The position numbers and the translations under genes are program-made. Below, piece after piece: positions 1,201 through 64,000 of a DNA stretch of 64,000 nt. Every line of letters starts with the position of its first letter. The stretch's first letter is position 1. The stretch comes from Thuidium tamariscinum (Eukaryota > Streptophyta > Bryopsida > Hypnales > Thuidiaceae), in NCBI GenBank assembly GCA_947034885.2, contig OX344753.2:6510001-6574000 (forward strand). The letters run 5' to 3'. The notes beneath the pieces were generated by a model. It searched no databases. It was not told where the DNA came from and saw nothing but the letters and a program-made list of their open reading frames with translations.

Positions 1201-1426
1201 CTAGAAATTGAAATTTTTTATGAATTTTTTAAAATATATTTAAAAATAAGGTCCAAATTAACCAAAAAAATCAACACTTTTTTGTTAAAATTTGACATTT
1301 TTTTGTTAAAAAATCAACACTTTTGTGTTCAAAAATACCCAAATTAACACGTCCAAATCAACAAAAAAAATCAACACTTTTGTATTGAGTTTTGTTAATT
1401 TAGTCACTGTTTTTTTTCTACTAGTG
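1200..1426 (-). mobile_element. CACTA-type transposon terminus
   Basis: Read on the minus strand, the segment starts at 1426 with CACTAGTAGAAAA, followed by several copies of a subterminal motif around AAAGTGTTGATTTTTT (four or so between 1270 and 1380). Subterminal motif arrays and CACTA termini are typical of the En/Spm superfamily. The same sequence, including TTGTTGATTTGGACGTGTTA, occurs at another CACTA end starting at 62337. The opposite end of this copy was not identified. Confidence 0.55.
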
Positions 1427-10710: not shown

Positions 10711-11449
10711 GGGTGATTGCAAGAAACACTTGTCTTATTTTTTATCCCCTTGGCCGTGGACAAGTGGGTTTTTACTCATAACTTTTGTGTTGTTTATCCA
10801 TTTTACACGAAACTTAAATGAAAGGTACATATGTAAGTTCTAGATACTATGTAACTTTTTGAAATTTCTTAAAATTATTATACTATTTTTAAATAGACCC
10901 TAATTGGATGTCTAACTGTCTACCTCGGCCAATTTGGAGGTTTTCAGTCCTGTTTTTGATCCAAAAATTCAAATTTTAAGCTCAAAATTGGCATTCTAGG
11001 ACTTCTACTAAAGTCACTGAAGCCTACAAAGAATTTTTTAAGAAATAGTAAACTTTTCAACTTCCACATGTGCTCAAAGTGCACTATCTTTGCCCAGGTG
11101 TAGACAACACAATTTATTTTTCCAAAGATGAAAATGGTTGAGGATGATCATCTTTAGGTTAGTAAATATGAATTTAATAATTTTATTCTTTAAAAAAATT
11201 TCACTATTTTAAAAATATCAAACATCAAAGTATCTATTTTCATTGTATTTCCATTGTGCTTATTTTGTGCATAACGTTTATCTGAGTTGAATTTTCTTAG
11301 GTCTGAATTTTAAGAGACACAATACTCTAATTTCTCTTCAAATTATCCATATTTTATTTTGTTTCAGAAAAATTTATTCCCAAAGTCACAAGACTCATTG
11401 GAATAGATCATTTTGAGCCAAAAACTGTAAGTGCTCCTTGCAATGACCC
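10711..11449. mobile_element. non-autonomous DNA transposon, family A, with 4-bp target duplication
   Basis: A 739-bp element with left terminus GGGTGATTGCAAGAAACACT and right terminus (read inward) GGGTCATTGCAAGGAGCACT. It is flanked by ATTT at 10707-10710 and 11450-11453. Its interior is the reverse complement of the element at 23154-23881: both carry the blocks around CAACTTCCACATGTG/CACATGTGGAAGTTG-type sequence, the Mg-poor AT tracts and TTGGCCGTGG/CCATTTTGG-like segments. No protein is encoded. Confidence 0.78.
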
Positions 11450-52076: not shown

Positions 52077-54559
52077 TTAGTGGCGAATTGATGCCTGCAT
52101 GACCATGGCAAACTTGTCTAGGGCATCACCGATCCGGTTCAATGCGGTGATGTAACCAGTTCCCAGCTGCTTCTGAAGCTCAATCAAATCTCGATGCTTT
52201 TCTCGTTCAAATTGTAAGGTCTGCTTATGTCTGTTGTCCTTCCTGTCTTCGGCCAGCCTCAGGGCCTCCACAATGCTCCGGTTGTTTCGCTCGAGCACCG
52301 CCGCAATGCCATCCATTGCACCTAGTTTGGGAGCTCCGAACCGCCTCCGCTTCCCTGTGGACACGGGTCCTACATCATTCTCGTCGCTCTCGTCTCCCCC
52401 AGACCCAGAGAAGTCCATGTTGCTTGCTATTGCCACAAACTTCACACATTTTAGTCCTTGAGGGACAACAAACATTGATGTCATAATTACGGCCCAAATG
52501 GCCAAAAGAGGAGTGATACTTGATCATCAATAGCTTGAAATACACATAGCATTACAGTAGAACCTCTCGAAAGAAATAGGGCCGGGACTGAGCTGACTAT
52601 ATTACATTAGAGAGGGTCATTCCATTGATGACATCTGTAATCAGCCCAGGGCAGGACCGGGCAATCAATATTACCTAAGAGAGGTTATTAAATTTGAGGT
52701 CATTACACTAGAGAGTTTTACTTTAGAGAGGTTCTACTGTATCAAGAAGCTGGGAACCCTCACTACTCCACAGTAGCCTGAAAATTTTCAATCAATGTAG
52801 AGAACCATTTCATGGAATTCTAAACAATCGGGAACACGCCATTGCAAGGACTATCATGGGCTCCTTCAAGAATAGGCCCAATGGTGTGATTTGCAGCTCC
52901 TCAAGAATGCAACTGGCAGAACAACGTTGCAAGGTCGTAATAAAATTTCCTTCGGTTACATCATGTAATGAAATCACGACAGTGAGGTTCTGACCTGCTC
53001 CTCGAGAAGGGGCTAACGCATCGAAGAGGACGCCCGGGGGATCACCCGTGCGGCTCTTCACGTACCACTCTTGGAGCGCTGCAAACACCTCCTTGTGGAA
53101 ATTTGGCGGCAGGCGCAGCTTCTTCTTGTCGTCACTGCCTAGCTGCCAATACGACGGTTGTCCCATAGCCAGCTGCTGCTTCTCGTAATCGTTCACCTTC
53201 TTAAAGCCCGCCGTGATCCCCTCCCACTTGTCTTGGCATTGACCTGCACTCCGCTGCACGCCTTGCATCCAGCACCGATCCTCCATCCACTTCCAGCGCT
53301 CGTGGGCCGACCTGTTATGCGCTCGCTCCACTTCAGAGCTTTCACGCCACATGCCATTCTCAAGGACTCTGAGGGAGGGGTGGCAACACCCGCCATCAAA
53401 ACCAGCAGCGAACTCAAAGGAACACAACACAACATACCGTGGTTTCCACTCATCCTACTCCCAAGGGACACTTTTCCCAAGTAATAATATTTTGACATAC
53501 TCCCCGTACTTATTCTTTTGTACTTATTCTTTCGAAATCTAAATTTTTCGAGGCTCTTTTCAGGGGATGCAACAATATCTCTTGTGCATAAAGAGTATCT
53601 TAAAGTTTTGGCTATTTCATCGAAGTTCTCGCCGTCATATGGTCGATATCCAAAGAGCTCTAGCAGACAACTCAAAACAGTTGACCTTTGACTACTTCAC
53701 AGGGCAAATCGGAAACTATCCCCTTATTAGATTCAAAAAGTCGTTAAACGGAGAGTAAATGTTGATCTCATAGAACATTCGATCAATGTCAAGACAATGT
53801 CAATGAGACTAACATCAAAAATCAACACTATCAGTGCTACATTAACATTAACGTAACTTTAAATTCATCATGAGCACGATATGATTCTAGTGCCTATAAT
53901 TCACTTAGCGTTAAGACGTTTGTGGCGTGAAAGCTCTCCACTTCAGAGCTTTCACGCCATATGCTATTCTTATTCTCAGGGACTCTGAGGGATTGCAACA
54001 CCCACCACCAAAACCAGCAAATCCAAAGGAACACCACCACATGTGGAGATTTCAACACAAGGCACATCTCAAAATATCCCCCCAATTCCTTTCACAGAGT
54101 CGTTAACAGTGACAGTGAGATAATGTTGCTCGAATAGAACATTAGACCAATGTCGAGGCAATGTCAATGGCACTTCCATCACAAATCAACACTATCTGTG
54201 CTACATTAACGTGACATTAATTCATCAAGGGCACTTTAGGAATCTAGTGCCTATAATTCACTTCGCGTTAATAGGTCAATCACATGGGGATTTTTGTGAT
54301 ACATGCCTGGAGATGAACTGACTGACAGACTGAGTGAGTACCTGTGCTTCTCCCGGTTGCCCCCCTTCGCTTGACGCTCGAAATCCTCCCGTCGCACCGC
54401 TTGCAAAACCAGAAGCTCCGAAACCGTCCACATGCCTTTTTTATAATGCCGGATGCCCGCGTCGTCGCCTTGAAGCTCATCCGCCAAGGCATCCTCCACA
54501 ATTATAGCATCCTTAGTATCCAAATGCACGCTGGGCATGCTCTCGTCGTGACCAGCCAT
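52077..54559 (-). CDS. Myb/SANT-like (trihelix-type) DNA-binding protein
   Basis: Three exons (minus): 54559-54342, 53311-52995, 52426-52077, giving 294 residues with phases consistent and total divisible by three. Residues 41-110 form a Myb/SANT-like domain of the trihelix kind: KGMWTVSELLVLQAVRRED, then SAHERWKWMEDRCW and QCQDKWEGITAGFKKVNDYE, with the tryptophans that define the helices. A loop with PSYWQLGSDDKKK follows, then PPNFHKEVFAALQEWY. The C-terminal third has a basic patch (GKRRRFG) and a charged helical stretch (EALRLAEDRKDNRHKQTLQF), probably a coiled coil. It may act as a nuclear transcription factor. The fold also occurs in PIF/Harbinger accessory proteins, so a domesticated origin is possible. 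The start could also be 54577. GC-rich sequence upstream (54600-55150) is a likely promoter. Confidence 0.8.
52555..52739. mobile_element. pogo/Emigrant-like MITE in Myb/SANT intron 2
   Basis: A 185-bp element with 14-bp perfect terminal inverted repeats CAGTAGAACCTCTC at both ends, flanked by TA at 52553-52554 and 52740-52741. The terminus and the GGGCCGGGACTGAG segment that follows resemble Emigrant-type MITEs, which derive from pogo (Tc1/mariner) transposons. No coding capacity. Confidence 0.85.
53336..54275. repeat. tandem segmental duplication in Myb/SANT intron 1
   Basis: Copy A (about 53336-53915) and copy B (about 53939-54275) both start CACTTCAGAGCTTTCACGCC and end GTGCCTATAATTCACTT(A/C)GCGTTAA. 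They share AATCAACACTATC and GAACATT blocks. Copy B is shorter. Copy A ends up against exon 2. Confidence 0.75.
53923..53959. repeat. 15-bp stem inverted repeat
   Basis: TGGCGTGAAAGCTCT (53923-53937), 7-nt loop, AGAGCTTTCACGCCA (53945-53959): a perfect stem at the junction between the two units of the tandem duplication. Confidence 0.8.
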
Positions 54560-55160
54560 TCCTACTACCGACAACATGGGCCGCGTTCTTTCCAAACCCA
54601 CCAAAAGAAATCCAAACAACAGATCCAATTCACATACTGCAAACAAAACCTACGTGACCATGAGATCAATCCCCTCTCGCAATCCCTCAATCCCAGCAAA
54701 ACGAGTCAATCCATTTTCAAACTCAAACATTCAACCTTTCCTGCGCTTCATGATGCTGGAACACGACCGAAACGAGATTACTCACAGGAGGTAGCAAAAG
54801 GGGAGTAAGAGTTGGGGCGACTGAATGCAGGCAACTGAAACCCTAATTCGAAAATGCAATCGATGTAGGAAAGGATTTGAATTTCCAAGAGCTGGATAGC
54901 GGAGATTCTCGTCTGTATGTAAGCCTCACTGCGAGGTGCAAGGTGCGAGGTGCGAGATGCGAGATGGAGGGGTCGGGTCGGGTCGGGTCGGGAAGGCGAG
55001 CTCGCCGCTACCCTGGGAAACGTCGGCTTTGCGTGTCTCGAAGGTGTGCTTGCTTGCTTGGGGCGTTTCGAAGTAACTGGGTGACTGGCTGGGGTTACCG
55101 GATGACCGGATGTTTGTCGGTGGAACTGGGTTGCGGAGTTATTTGAGCCAAACCAATTAC
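54560..55160 (-). promoter_or_regulatory. GC-rich upstream region of the Myb/SANT gene
   Basis: Composition rises and simple repeats appear: GGTCG units (about 54970-54991) and TGCGAGG-like units (about 54928-54966). Probably promoter and 5' leader. ORFs on both strands here have no known domain. Confidence 0.45.
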
Positions 55161-58100: not shown

Positions 58101-58955
58101 GGTTAAATGCATTAGGACAAGACTAGTCATTTTTTGATGACTTCTTGTGTAGTGAGGAAAAATTTTATTTGAAATTAAAATAGTAAAAATTTGAAAAAAA
58201 ATTGGGGGGGTATAGAAAATTTGCTTACAAAGTTTGACTTCACAAATTGCAAGTTAAAAGAAAATGTCTTTCTTGAAGTCACCCCAACGTAACTAACAAA
58301 ATTTGATTCTTTTTAGAATGTAATTTGAGAAATAAATTTTTTTTTGACAATTTTATGCCATATTTTACTATTTAAATGCCAAATTTCAAAAATTAATGAG
58401 TAGTTATGCGAAAGATGCCCCAAAGTTGTCCATATTGCCTAGCCTACCAAAAAAATTTGATAAAACATAACTTTTGATTCAAACACCCAATTGGAAAAAA
58501 ATGATTTCTTCTATGGGGATAAATGTTTACACCTTGTGTCAAAATTTTGCAAACATTAAACCAAAATTGATTTCATAGGAACTTACCCAAATTTTCTATT
58601 GTTTATTCAATAAATAATTGGCCTTAAGGGATTAAAAACTACCACGTGGTCAAATGGGACTTAAATTGAATTGATTGCTTTTGGTTTCATGGTCCATATC
58701 CTATAAATGTATACATTTAAGGGGAGGCAAAATTTGTGAAGAAGGGTGGGAAGAATTTAAAAAAAAAATTTAATTTAATATATAAAATATTCCTATTAAA
58801 AAACCTACATGAATGAATTTACATAAACTATAGGATATTGGATATTTGTCCTTTGTAGCTTTTAGCTAACAATATAGTTATTTTAAATACAAAAATTAAG
58901 GTAAATAGCATGACATGAAATATTCTTTTAACTCGAATGTATACCTTAAATTATA
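55170..58955. other. AT-rich intergenic sequence
   Basis: No gene, and no element boundary recognised, over about 3.8 kb. Confidence 0.45.
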
Positions 58956-58958
58956 AGG

Positions 58959-59815
58959 AGTAATCTCACAAAGTTTGAACCATTAAATTTTTGTTGTACA
59001 ATGTGCACTATAATTGGTATATTTTGGTAAGCATAATTATCATTGTACGCTTATACAATCCCAATTAAGTACACTAAATTTCAATTTTGAAAAATCAAAA
59101 ATTCATTTTTGGAAAATAATTCAAGTCAATTTTCATGATTTTACATGATATTTTATTGAGAACAATTGGTGATGAGTTTTTAAAATTTGATTGTTGTGAT
59201 ATGTAGGAAGCATTTATATGCACATCTTCCCTTCAACAAGGATCTCCAAAAAAGTTTCACAATTCTTTCTATAGAGCCTTTGATGTGATGTGTCATATAA
59301 GTATATAACCAAATTTGGAAGATAGTTATTTCTAAGTATGTTAATTAGATTTTGGCAATGTAACTGTACCATTATGCTCAAAGGTAAGAAAATATGTACC
59401 ATTTGAGGAGCAAATAGAAAAATCTAGTTATAATAAAGACATATCTATTTTTACAAGATTTAGGCATTGTTGCTTTAACATTGAAATATCTATTGAAGGA
59501 ATTGTCTAACTTTTGTCAAGATACTTGTTGAAGGGATGATCTTGTATATAGATGCTTCCTACATTTTACAACAATCAAATTTTAAAATTCATCACCAATT
59601 GTTTTCAATAAACTATCATGTAAAATCATAGAAATTGACTTTTAAAATTTACTAAACATGAAGTTTTGATTTTTCAAAATTGAAATTTAGTATACTTGAT
59701 TGGGATTGTGTAAGGATTCAATGGTAATTATGCTTACCAAAATATATCAATTATACTCCACTTTGTACAATTTTGCTCAAATACTCTAGTTGTAAGATTA
59801 TTGTACCCAATTGTA
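58959..59815. repeat. large fold-back element
   Basis: Inverted repeat with arms of about 250-280 bp (left about 58959-59243, right about 59532-59815) around a spacer of about 290 bp. Examples: TTTTGGTAAGCATAATTA near 59023 against its complement near 59735, and TGTAGGAAGCAT near 59204 against ATGCTTCCTACA near 59550. The arms look roughly 85% alike by eye. No coding capacity. Confidence 0.75.
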
Positions 59816-60801
59816 CAACTTTCAAGTTTTCTTGTTAGGCAATTGCTTGATGTGAGTTTTTTGGTTAAAATTTTGCAAACACTTCATTTGGAAGGTGAAA
59901 GTGGAAAACTTGTTGAGAATTTGCATTGATTTTATAACATTATGCATTTATGGAGGATGGTTAGATTTACCATGAAACAATTAAAGTATTTTAATTACAA
60001 ACCTAATTTACTTAAGGTATAGTTCTACATCAACAAAATCTATGAGAAAATCTTGGCATGGTAAAAATGAGAAATTAAGAGTGATTTTTAGTAACATATT
60101 ATACATGTTAAGATTAATTATAAACATTTTAGATATAATTGATATTATTAGAAAATTTTCTTATCATACTTATTTCCTACTACAAGGGTTATATTATTTT
60201 TGTCCATATAAAATCTAATGTTTAGTAATTCTTTTGGTATTTCATTGTTTTGACAAATTTATAGACTAATCCTTTGAATTCAAGACCCAAATTTTCAAAA
60301 TTATAGAAAATGTACTCTAAAGTGCAACTTAGAATAATGTTAAGTAATTTTCAAATGTTTTTTTCATTGAGTTGAAAATATTGAGTTCAATCTATAGTAA
60401 GTTGAATTTATAGATTTTACTTCATTTATTTATTAAAATTTATTTTAAAGGATTATGTTTGTATTTGAAAATAATAATTTTTGAAGTCAAATATTAATAT
60501 CCTTTGAATCCTTGAGCTATAAAGATTTGCAAAAGGAAGTTGTAAAAATCTATACCATACAAATGGAAAGTAAATTTCTAAAAATCAACAAATATTTAGA
60601 TGGATGAAAAAATACAAAATAAAATGTACTTGAGAGGTGTTTACATTCATCTCTTTCTCAAGATTAGAATGTTCAAACATTTGGGGATAAAATTTTATAG
60701 ATTTTGTTAAGGATTTCTTTACTTGTTTTTATTTATATATTGTGTATCCAATACAATTGTTGTAATTGCCCTTGTTTTTGAAATTTTTAGTACCAAGCAT
60801 G

Positions 60802-61008
60802 CACTATAAGAAACTTATGTTTTAGGTGACGGATTTTAGGTGACATCCAATGTAGCAACACGCATTTTTATGTTAACAATGATGTCCACCATAACATTTT
60901 GATAACATCAAAATGTTATGGTGGACATCATTGTTAACATAAAAATGCGTGTTGCTACATTGGATGTCGCCTAAAATCCGTCACCTAAAACATAAGTTTC
61001 TTATAGTA
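60802..61008. mobile_element. near-perfect hairpin MITE with CACTA-type end
   Basis: 207 bp: left arm 60802-60903, 3-nt loop 60904-60906, right arm 60907-61008, 100 of 102 positions paired (mismatches 60802/61008 and 60841/60969). Left end CACTATAAGAAAC, right end (inward) TACTATAAGAAAC, flanked by ATG at 60799-60801 and 61009-61011, the 3-bp duplication expected of CACTA elements. Confidence 0.88.
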
Positions 61009-61443
61009 ATGAGTCAAAGTGGATGTAGCAAAATAGAGTAGAAGTCCAAATGTAGATTTGCTTAGAAAAAATGTGAGGCCTTGTAGAGACCTTTGGCTCC
61101 TATGAAGTTCTTATAGCTCATTGAAGTAGCCAAAAGATTGCCACATCCTCTACCAAATAAAATACTCTATATAGATCTTTGTCTAAAATATTAATTCTTT
61201 GAACATATGAGCATCACGATGATTTTAGGCACACCTATAATCAAGCCTTGAAATATTATATATATAAATTAGAATGGAACTTGTTACTTTGCAACAATAT
61301 AAAAAATTTCATCTAGCAATGAGTTTTCCTTGAGAAGATGCTTGGATGTGTTCAGGGATTTGCAAGAATAAATGAATGAAAAATTGTGTCACTGAAAATG
61401 TGATGGGTGATTGGTTGTACTCCCTGCCCACGCCCGCCGTACC

Positions 61444-61749: not shown

Positions 61750-62075
61750 CACCTCTAGGGGGTTCAAAGCTTTGTTGTAATATCCGTTTTTGACACACCA
61801 CTAAGACCTAAGTTTTGTTTTGATCCCTAGGGGGTTCAAAGCTTCATTGTCCCGATGGGACCAGTAAAAACGTCCTAGCTAAAAGAAGGGGGGAGTAGTT
61901 ACTTTGACCCCTAGGGGGTTCAAAGCTTTGCCGTCCCGATGGAACCGATAAAAACGTCCTAGATAAAAGAAGGGGGAAGAAGGGGGAGTAGTTACTTTGA
62001 TTCCTAGGGGGTTCAAAGCTTCGCTGTCCTGATGGGACCGATAAAAACGTCCTAGCTTAAAGAAAAGGGGGAGAA
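61750..62075 (+). repeat. tandem array, about 3.5 units of 83-94 bp
   Basis: The core CCTAGGGGGTTCAAAGCTT recurs near 61753, 61825, 61908 and 62002. The last three units also share GATGG(G/A)ACC and TAAAAACGTCCTAG. The units differ by purine-rich insertions (AGAAGGGGGAG). No coding capacity. Confidence 0.75.
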
Positions 62076-62336
62076 GAAAGAATATCTCATGATCATGTAT
62101 CAGTAGCTTCCTTCAATCACTCTAAGTCACCTCACATCTAGAGGCCCCCCAAACGACATCGCCAAGTCATAGGAGGGTGGTTCTAGGATTAGTTTTCCAT
62201 CTAAGGTAATCCTTTCAAGGCCTACACAACCTCTACAACGCTCCAACAAGTACCAACAATGGAAGGTCACAACTCACACGTGTTAACACCACGATTTGAA
62301 CAAAGTTTATCCAAGGAGGGTTCTCAAGCCTCCAAA

Positions 62337-64000
62337 CACTACTAGAAAATCCAGTGACAAGATCAACAGAACTGCAACACGGAAGTGTTGATTCTTTTTG
62401 TTGATTTGGACGTGTTACCTTGGGCAGTTCAGAACACAAAGTTGTTGAATTTCGAACAAAAATTTGTTGATGTAGGTTGATTACAGAACACTTTTCTGTT
62501 CCCTACGCTACACAATACTGCTGATTCCTAACAAAATACTGTTAACATTGCTGTTGATTTCAGCACTTCCCAAGCACTGTCAACAACGCTATTGAGGCTA
62601 CGTGCTTCATAAAGCAACAGCTTATTTCACATTTGGTGCGGTTGTATGTCATTCAGGCTTCTTCAAATATGATCACTCTAAAACTTTCGACTCCTTCATA
62701 GTATACTAAATGCAAAGGGCTGAGACAGAGAACTTCTACTTCAACTTCCTCATTCTACAGTCTGCCTCCAATCACAATTTCTCTAGTTTCATAAAGTCAT
62801 TTTCTACAAATTGATGATCGATCAGGCACAAATATGTCTGAGAAAGTCAATTTCGAATGAATAGCACCAATGAATACTTTCTCTCTGAAAGGCATACACC
62901 TTCAGAGTATGGGCTGAACAAATATATTGATGAAACAAAGCTACATGAGCATTGTTCCTGCTTGCATCTACAAATCAAGAAACAAATGACCTATACACTA
63001 TGTCCCATTGACAATCATCCTGGTTTCTTTAAACCAAGGAAAATAAAAGGTTCACAATATTCTGTCAATATCTCTGTGTTCTTCAAAAATAGTCTTCATA
63101 CCTAAACTCTGCATAACCACTAACGAAGGCATCGTCTCAAAACACACGTACCACCAAACCATTTCTTGAAGGTCCTGCATTGCAACAATTCCACTTCTAC
63201 TCAATTGCAACCTAAAGGTATAAAGTAAATTACCTTGTTATGAATTCACAAGGAACTCCATGACAGTCTCATTGAAATAATGCAGCATATGTATTGAAAA
63301 TGGTCATATGACATTTCCATTCAATGATTGACAACTTCTGAGCTCTACAGACGTATACTGATGTCTCAGTTCTTCAATGTACTGCATGATTTCCCACTAG
63401 TACTTCGAATATTTAAATCAAAGATTGAATTGCAAAGTGCACAACTTTGACAAGGTTGAAGACATAGGAGTACATAGCTTTGTAGTTCCCACAATACGAA
63501 TTAAAGAATGGGTAAAACGCAACAACTACTACAAGCGTTTCCTGCAATTCTGAGAGGAGTTAATAATGAAATTCCGTTGCAAGCAGTATTGGACTAAAGA
63601 TTCTGCGCCCTTACCAATGGTACCTCATCAAATGTGCTCAAGAAGCGAAACAGAGGATGAAAGCAGTTGCTGCTAACAGTTCTTGTTGCACATACGATCA
63701 CAGACAAGGGCAATCACAGCAGATGGAGGTGCCTACTGAGGCTCCATCTCGTCTCCGCCATTTGCCTTGCATTACTACTATCGCAACCTCGACTTTGTCC
63801 ACCCAACTTTCATGCACTCTGTAGTTTGGTACCCTTTCAGAGGTGTACCTTCATATCTTGTAAAATCCTGAAACAGATTCCAAGTTCATATGCTGTAAGA
63901 AACTAAATGCCAAACAAAGAAAATCAACTTCTTACCCAACCATGGCATCAGTCCTTCAGTCATGAACAACCAAAATATAAACTCGATCTATGACAGACAT
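62337..64000 (+). mobile_element. CACTA-type terminus and possible element body
   Basis: Begins CACTACTAGAAAATCCAGTG at 62337, then AGTGTTGATTCTTTTTGTTG and further GTTGAT-rich subterminal units, matching the inverted terminus at 1200-1426. The sequence to the window end is less AT-rich and may be the body of the element or unrelated. No transposase is recognisable and the other end is outside the window. Confidence 0.5.

Follow-up and report, generated by a model that had tools for sequence, protein, structure and literature searches.

The question raised by this locus is what a nearly perfect 207-bp palindrome, located at 60802–61008 in the 64-kb stretch of Thuidium tamariscinum DNA that was analyzed (hereafter the window), represents and how it came to lie there. 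The evidence presented below points to a recently inserted, non-autonomous DNA transposon that belongs to the CACTA (En/Spm) superfamily and takes the form of a foldback MITE, a reading to which we assign a probability of approximately 85%. On this reading, the hairpin is an instance of an already known element type. The coordinates of its parts and of the other CACTA-type termini in the window are listed in Table 1.

Table 1. Parts of the hairpin, its flanking duplication and other CACTA-type termini in the window.
Feature	Position	Strand	Identified by
Left TSD copy, ATG	60799..60801		flank reading
Left arm, 102 nt, starting CACTATAAGAAA	60802..60903	+	base-by-base pairing
Candidate subterminal repeat TTTTAGGTGAC, two copies in the left arm	60820..60844 (60820-60830, 60834-60844)	+	word search
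Loop, AAC, 3 nt	60904..60906		base-by-base pairing
Right arm, 102 nt, reading TACTATAAGAAA inward from its end	60907..61008	-	base-by-base pairing
Right-arm subterminal repeats, TTTTAGGTGAC (60980-60990) and TTTTAGGCGAC (60966-60976)	60966..60990	-	word search
Right TSD copy, ATG	61009..61011		flank reading
Terminus of another CACTA-type element, CACTACTAGAAAATC..., outside the hairpin	62337..62462	+	alignment
End of a CACTA-type element related to the preceding one, CACTAGTAGAAAA..., outside the hairpin	1300..1426	-	alignment

Base-by-base pairing of the 207-bp palindrome demonstrated that 100 of the 102 arm positions form Watson–Crick pairs. The two mismatches were C60802/A61008, which is the outermost pair, and T60841/G60969. 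Outward of the hairpin, only 2 of the next 19 pairs were complementary (60796/61014 and 60787/61023), indicating that the symmetry ends at the CACTA-type termini. The 102-nt arms, 3-nt loop, CACTA-type ends and ATG/ATG duplication described in the original prediction were exact to the base. A CACTA motif is present at the left end, where CACTATAAGAAA occupies 60802–60813. The right end reads TAGTA instead of TAGTG through one substitution at the outermost base (position 61008; expected G, found A), which could be a later mutation. Each arm also carries TTTTAGGTGAC twice at a spacing of 14 bases, the copies beginning 19 and 33 bases in from the end, and one of the four copies is changed. The arrangement resembles the subterminal repeats known from CACTA elements, but its statistical support is mixed: among 2000 shuffles of the arm, 3 contained an exact repeat of at least 11 nt, whereas 70 of 2000 pieces drawn at random from the window did.

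No frame of at least 60 aa overlaps 60802–61008, and the hairpin is therefore called non-autonomous. Ten frames near it showed no Pfam match at an E value of 0.1, and the setting is AT-rich, with a GC content of 26% in the left 200 bp and 33% in the right. The stretch around the hairpin thus looks non-coding. Several features by which a MITE is recognized were present: small size (207 bp), no coding content, a terminal inverted repeat (TIR) of 102 nt, and a 3-bp TSD.

The folding energy of the hairpin was far beyond that of shuffled sequences. As RNA, the + strand folded at -171.5 kcal/mol, compared with -39.9 on average for its shuffles (z, -32.7), and the - strand at -168.9 kcal/mol (z, -31.3), and none of 200 dinucleotide shuffles was as good in either case. 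One of the mismatches had been expected to become a G–U wobble upon transcription; this holds for T60841/G60969 in a + strand transcript, whereas a - strand transcript would have an open A/C mismatch there. When the whole window was scanned for ungapped palindromes with loops of up to 60, the hairpin scored 98, compared with best scores of 11 to 14 in each of five first-order Markov randomized windows. The same scan gave a score of 120 to another palindrome (622–981), whose arms are longer but poorer. This region, delimited as 616–987 with arms 86% alike, is accompanied by another copy of its repeat that has diverged further (132–946), and the two apparently form a foldback cluster of nested or tandem type.

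Some chimeras are recognized by inverted arms that are nearly identical, and an inverted chimeric read would yield such a palindrome as a sequencing or assembly artefact. This explanation is barely credible here: the two arms disagree at an internal base pair, the flanks are unrelated beyond the two complementary pairs, and the ends are transposon-type termini with a duplication. A chimera would also be expected to mirror the flank.

Another explanation is that the palindrome was formed in place by inverted duplication or template switch, with the CACTA-like ends and ATG flanks being coincidental. Fold-back synthesis can produce near-perfect palindromes, and a second copy of the hairpin was not found in the 64-kb window, where the best match outside the hairpin itself was no better than E 0.13. 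Equal triplets around CACTA-like pairs also arise by chance: among the YACTA...TAGTR pairs located 100–600 bases apart in the window, 5 of 138 had equal flanking triplets, the hairpin being one of the fitting pairs. Taken alone, the ATG duplication is weak evidence, and it counts as evidence because it is located exactly at the palindrome end. Against formation in place, the symmetry begins precisely at CACTA/TAGTA with ATG on either side, while the frequency of CACTA in the window is approximately 1 per 1000 positions and random 3-mers taken from it agree pairwise with a probability of 0.021 (about 1 in 48). Formation in place is accordingly considered very unlikely. The argument for a CACTA element rests on palindrome end, CACTA-type terminus and duplication falling together, and on none of them singly. 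The word CACTAYAAGAAA, allowing up to one mismatch, was found four times in the window against 1.21 expected by chance, and at least four occurrences were seen in 2 of 100 shuffles.

Published descriptions of CACTA elements give them CACTA termini and TSDs of 3 bp (PMC4938662; PMC2613891). The first 12 nt of the hairpin, CACTATAAGAAA, share 11 of 12 letters with the start of the TIR of a CACTA element in the radish RsMYB1 promoter, which is printed as CACTACAAGAAAA (PMC7210773), and 10 of 12 with each of the two other CACTA-type termini of the window. The corresponding values for the right end of the hairpin were 10 of 12 for the radish TIR and 9 of 12 for the two window termini. Aligned over 128 columns that start at their terminal bases, these two termini, 62337(+) and 1426(-), show 80% identity, a likeness which suggests that this genome probably contains CACTA-type elements. 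Past the terminal dozen bases, they showed no evident likeness to the hairpin, and the subterminal motif TTTTAGGTGAC was absent from both at up to one mismatch. Both termini open toward the window ends. Within the window, neither element was found to have a second end that matches, so the remainder of both probably lies at or past the window ends. Between the hairpin and the 62337 terminus, direct repeats of approximately 85–95 bp (61819–62076; at least three copies, 83–88% alike) contain CCTAGGGGGTTCAAAGCTT-like words.

No CACTA transposase was identified among the 18 window frames scanned with Pfam, and a 25-nt arm word of the hairpin had no matches in viral contigs, in line with expectation for plant DNA. 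A literature search for CACTATAAGAAA returned no paper on transposons by title; the matches of a search for CACTACAAGAAA include a paper on a CACTA element. Counting against a CACTA origin, this superfamily is described as the least represented in a MITE survey of 207 plant genomes (PMC12550479). Three-base-pair duplications are likewise made by PIF/Harbinger elements (PMC2213677), and the hairpin might accordingly be a Tourist-like MITE of that or another superfamily with such duplications. The ends of the hairpin are nevertheless CACTA-type, and the target here is ATG. Tourist-like elements prefer TAA/TTA targets, and we regard this assignment as highly improbable. Overall, the proposal that the locus is a hairpin MITE gained support from its ends and the 3-bp duplication beside them, from its lack of coding capacity, and from the CACTA-type termini located elsewhere in the window. 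The suggestion that it is very active gained no support in the window, where no second copy was found.

A CACTA foldback MITE of this design, in which a loop of 3 nt is all that separates the two terminal inverted repeats within 207 bp, probably reached its present site as follows. A CACTA transposase supplied by another element would have recognized the CACTATAAGAAA ends together with the subterminal motifs, and cut-and-paste movement in trans would have led to a single insertion at ATG, duplicating these 3 bp. From a state in which the arms were identical, the outermost base 61008 and one interior pair would then have changed. If the locus is transcribed, the resulting long duplex would be expected, by analogy with the MITEs of other plants, to be cut by plant Dicer-like enzymes into siRNAs that contribute to silencing the family.

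The age of the insertion was estimated from the divergence of the arms. With yearly plant substitution rates of 7e-9 and 1.5e-8 per site, two differences per 102 pairs would correspond to roughly 0.65–1.4 million years, on the assumption of arms that did not differ at insertion and underwent no later conversion between them. The hairpin had been called recent; the two differences in 102 pairs agree with this, but gene conversion from arm to arm could mimic youth. The 60841/60969 difference can be explained either by a C-to-T change at a left-arm CpG or by an A-to-G change in the right arm, and the latter is favored because the neighboring repeat copies read T. As both directions of change fit, deamination is not claimed as the cause of this difference. 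Other palindromes of the window are more decayed, with 616–987 at 86% and 58994–59770 at 76%; this comparison is a range of arm divergence in different repeats, not a series within one family. The latter is an older 777-bp palindrome approximately 1 kb upstream of the hairpin. It is 75.7% self-complementary, has TTGTACAA at both ends (read inward), and is flanked on both sides by TTTTG, a possible 5-bp duplication.

Whatever its transposon origin, the hairpin might now be used by the host as a small-RNA locus, either a proto-miRNA or a hairpin-siRNA gene, which would be compatible with the CACTA reading. It offers a near-perfect duplex of approximately 101 bp on either strand. Plant MITE hairpins are described as giving rise to 24-nt and some 21-nt RNAs (PMC3086885; PMC10004981), and structured regions of maize transposable elements are reported to be generally richer in small RNAs (PMC10760457). 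In the latter account, hairpins were predicted in 32.52% of CACTA elements and 62.82% of Mutator elements. On the other side, none of the left-arm 21-mers, in either direction, was found elsewhere in the window at up to three mismatches, and no nearby target was seen.

Rfam comparison provided a further argument on both sides. In a permissive scan of 411 bases around the hairpin, the family MIR6217 led the matches, reaching 111.7 bits on the + strand against a gathering score of 110; the - strand remained under it at 107.2 bits. The letters of hairpin and model agreed at 91 of 203 positions, which none of 2000 shuffles reached (mean, 57.4 identities; largest, 80), although the alignment was optimized and the shuffles were left unaligned. 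Nevertheless, the alignment rests largely on pairing-compatible columns, and the same stretch gave 45 Rfam matches at E values of up to 1, including mir-876 at 1.4e-10. Mir-876, like others of the matched families, is an animal miRNA family, and such a score suggests that Rfam E values are untrustworthy for so strong a hairpin. A scan of the whole window with gathering scores and default filters returned no matches. As controls, the other strong palindrome (560–1040) gave 19 matches, none at the gathering score, and the older diverged palindrome (58950–59820) gave none at an E value of 0.001. An identity with MIR6217 was set aside in view of the compatible pairs that carry the alignment, the identity of 91/203 and the many other families that match. 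The match looks like a generic effect of long hairpins, a judgement from sequence comparison that is not fully controlled.

A small-RNA locus is a plausible idea for such a hairpin in general, by analogy with other plants, but as an account of this locus we consider it unlikely. If the stem is transcribed, it would be expected to feed siRNA production of the DCL2/DCL3/DCL4 type rather than DCL1-dependent miRNA production, following the preference for such stems in published accounts (PMC10004981; PMC3086885). That the hairpin is transcribed and already yields RNAs of 21 or 24 nt which act in trans on its mobilizing CACTA family appears more doubtful still. If true, the element would have produced its own trigger of silencing and would be observed no more than about a million years after it inserted.

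The window that surrounds the CACTA-type hairpin holds other repeats and several coding frames. Three inverted dispersed repeat pairs, 73–74% identical, are located at 10711–11451/23152–23881, 25038–25659/49614–50210 and 7977–8566/12455–13058 and probably represent transposon families of some age; in the first pair, each copy ends in terminal inverted repeats in which TTGCAAGRARCACTT occurs. On the - strand, frames at 52077–54649, including one with a Myb/SANT-like domain (PF13837), accompany direct repeats at 53698–53914/54056–54271, and this region could be a trihelix gene or encode a transposon-borne protein. An uninterrupted frame of 443 aa contains TAXi_N and TAXi_C domains according to Pfam, a pair typical of plant nepenthesin-like proteases. 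Compared with solved structures, it matched seven distinct sequences, with plasmepsin V the best and one plant protein (conglutin gamma) among them. It is the domain pair, and not the structure comparison, that marks the window by its sequence as eukaryotic and probably plant, which also counts in favor of the CACTA reading. Two frames near this protease frame matched amino-acid permeases, one of them below the cut-off of Pfam.

Compared with known systems, the architecture of the hairpin, in which the whole element folds on itself, is that of the hAT-derived hairpin MITEs of beet ("hATpins") and other foldback MITEs. The hAT superfamily makes 8-bp duplications, unlike the 3 bp observed here. 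A CACTA-type TIR is common to the hairpin and to En/Spm, a classical CACTA element. The MITE-derived siRNA and miRNA hairpins of angiosperms share with it the type of stem cut by DCL2/3/4 (PMC10004981; PMC3086885), whereas the stem of a canonical DCL1 precursor is less perfect. Rfam MIR6217 (RF04195) is likewise a long hairpin of similar length, but its model starts with UGGCUACAAAAUA and not with CACTA. Tgmt* of soybean has a 3-bp duplication, as the hairpin does, and a repeated subterminal motif to which the candidate repeat of the hairpin would correspond; it differs in being described as 20.5 kb long with 13-bp TIRs and transposase functions (PMC2613891), whereas the hairpin has no coding content and consists almost wholly of TIR.

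The nearest published parallel found was pvCACTA1 of Phaseolus vulgaris, compared by description and not by sequence (PMC4938662). As described there, pvCACTA1 elements are likewise small, non-autonomous and non-coding, with CACTA...TAGTG ends, a 3-bp duplication and unusually long TIRs (145–158 bp in elements of 330–446 bp), and their copy number can exceed 12,000 (PMC4938662). The TIRs of the hairpin differ in meeting at a 3-nt loop within 207 bp, and its TSD is ATG, in contrast to the frequent WWW of pvCACTA1 (PMC4938662). The shape of the hairpin is thus unusual for a CACTA element but has a precedent, as small pvCACTA1 elements with TIRs of over 150 bp are described. If its family proves to be multi-copy, the hairpin would offer a subject for the origin of MITE hairpins, the speed at which their arms decay, and the onset and end of siRNA feeding. 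The locus represents a clean, datable and almost loopless CACTA-type foldback, and pvCACTA1 and other CACTA MITEs with long TIRs come close to this shape.
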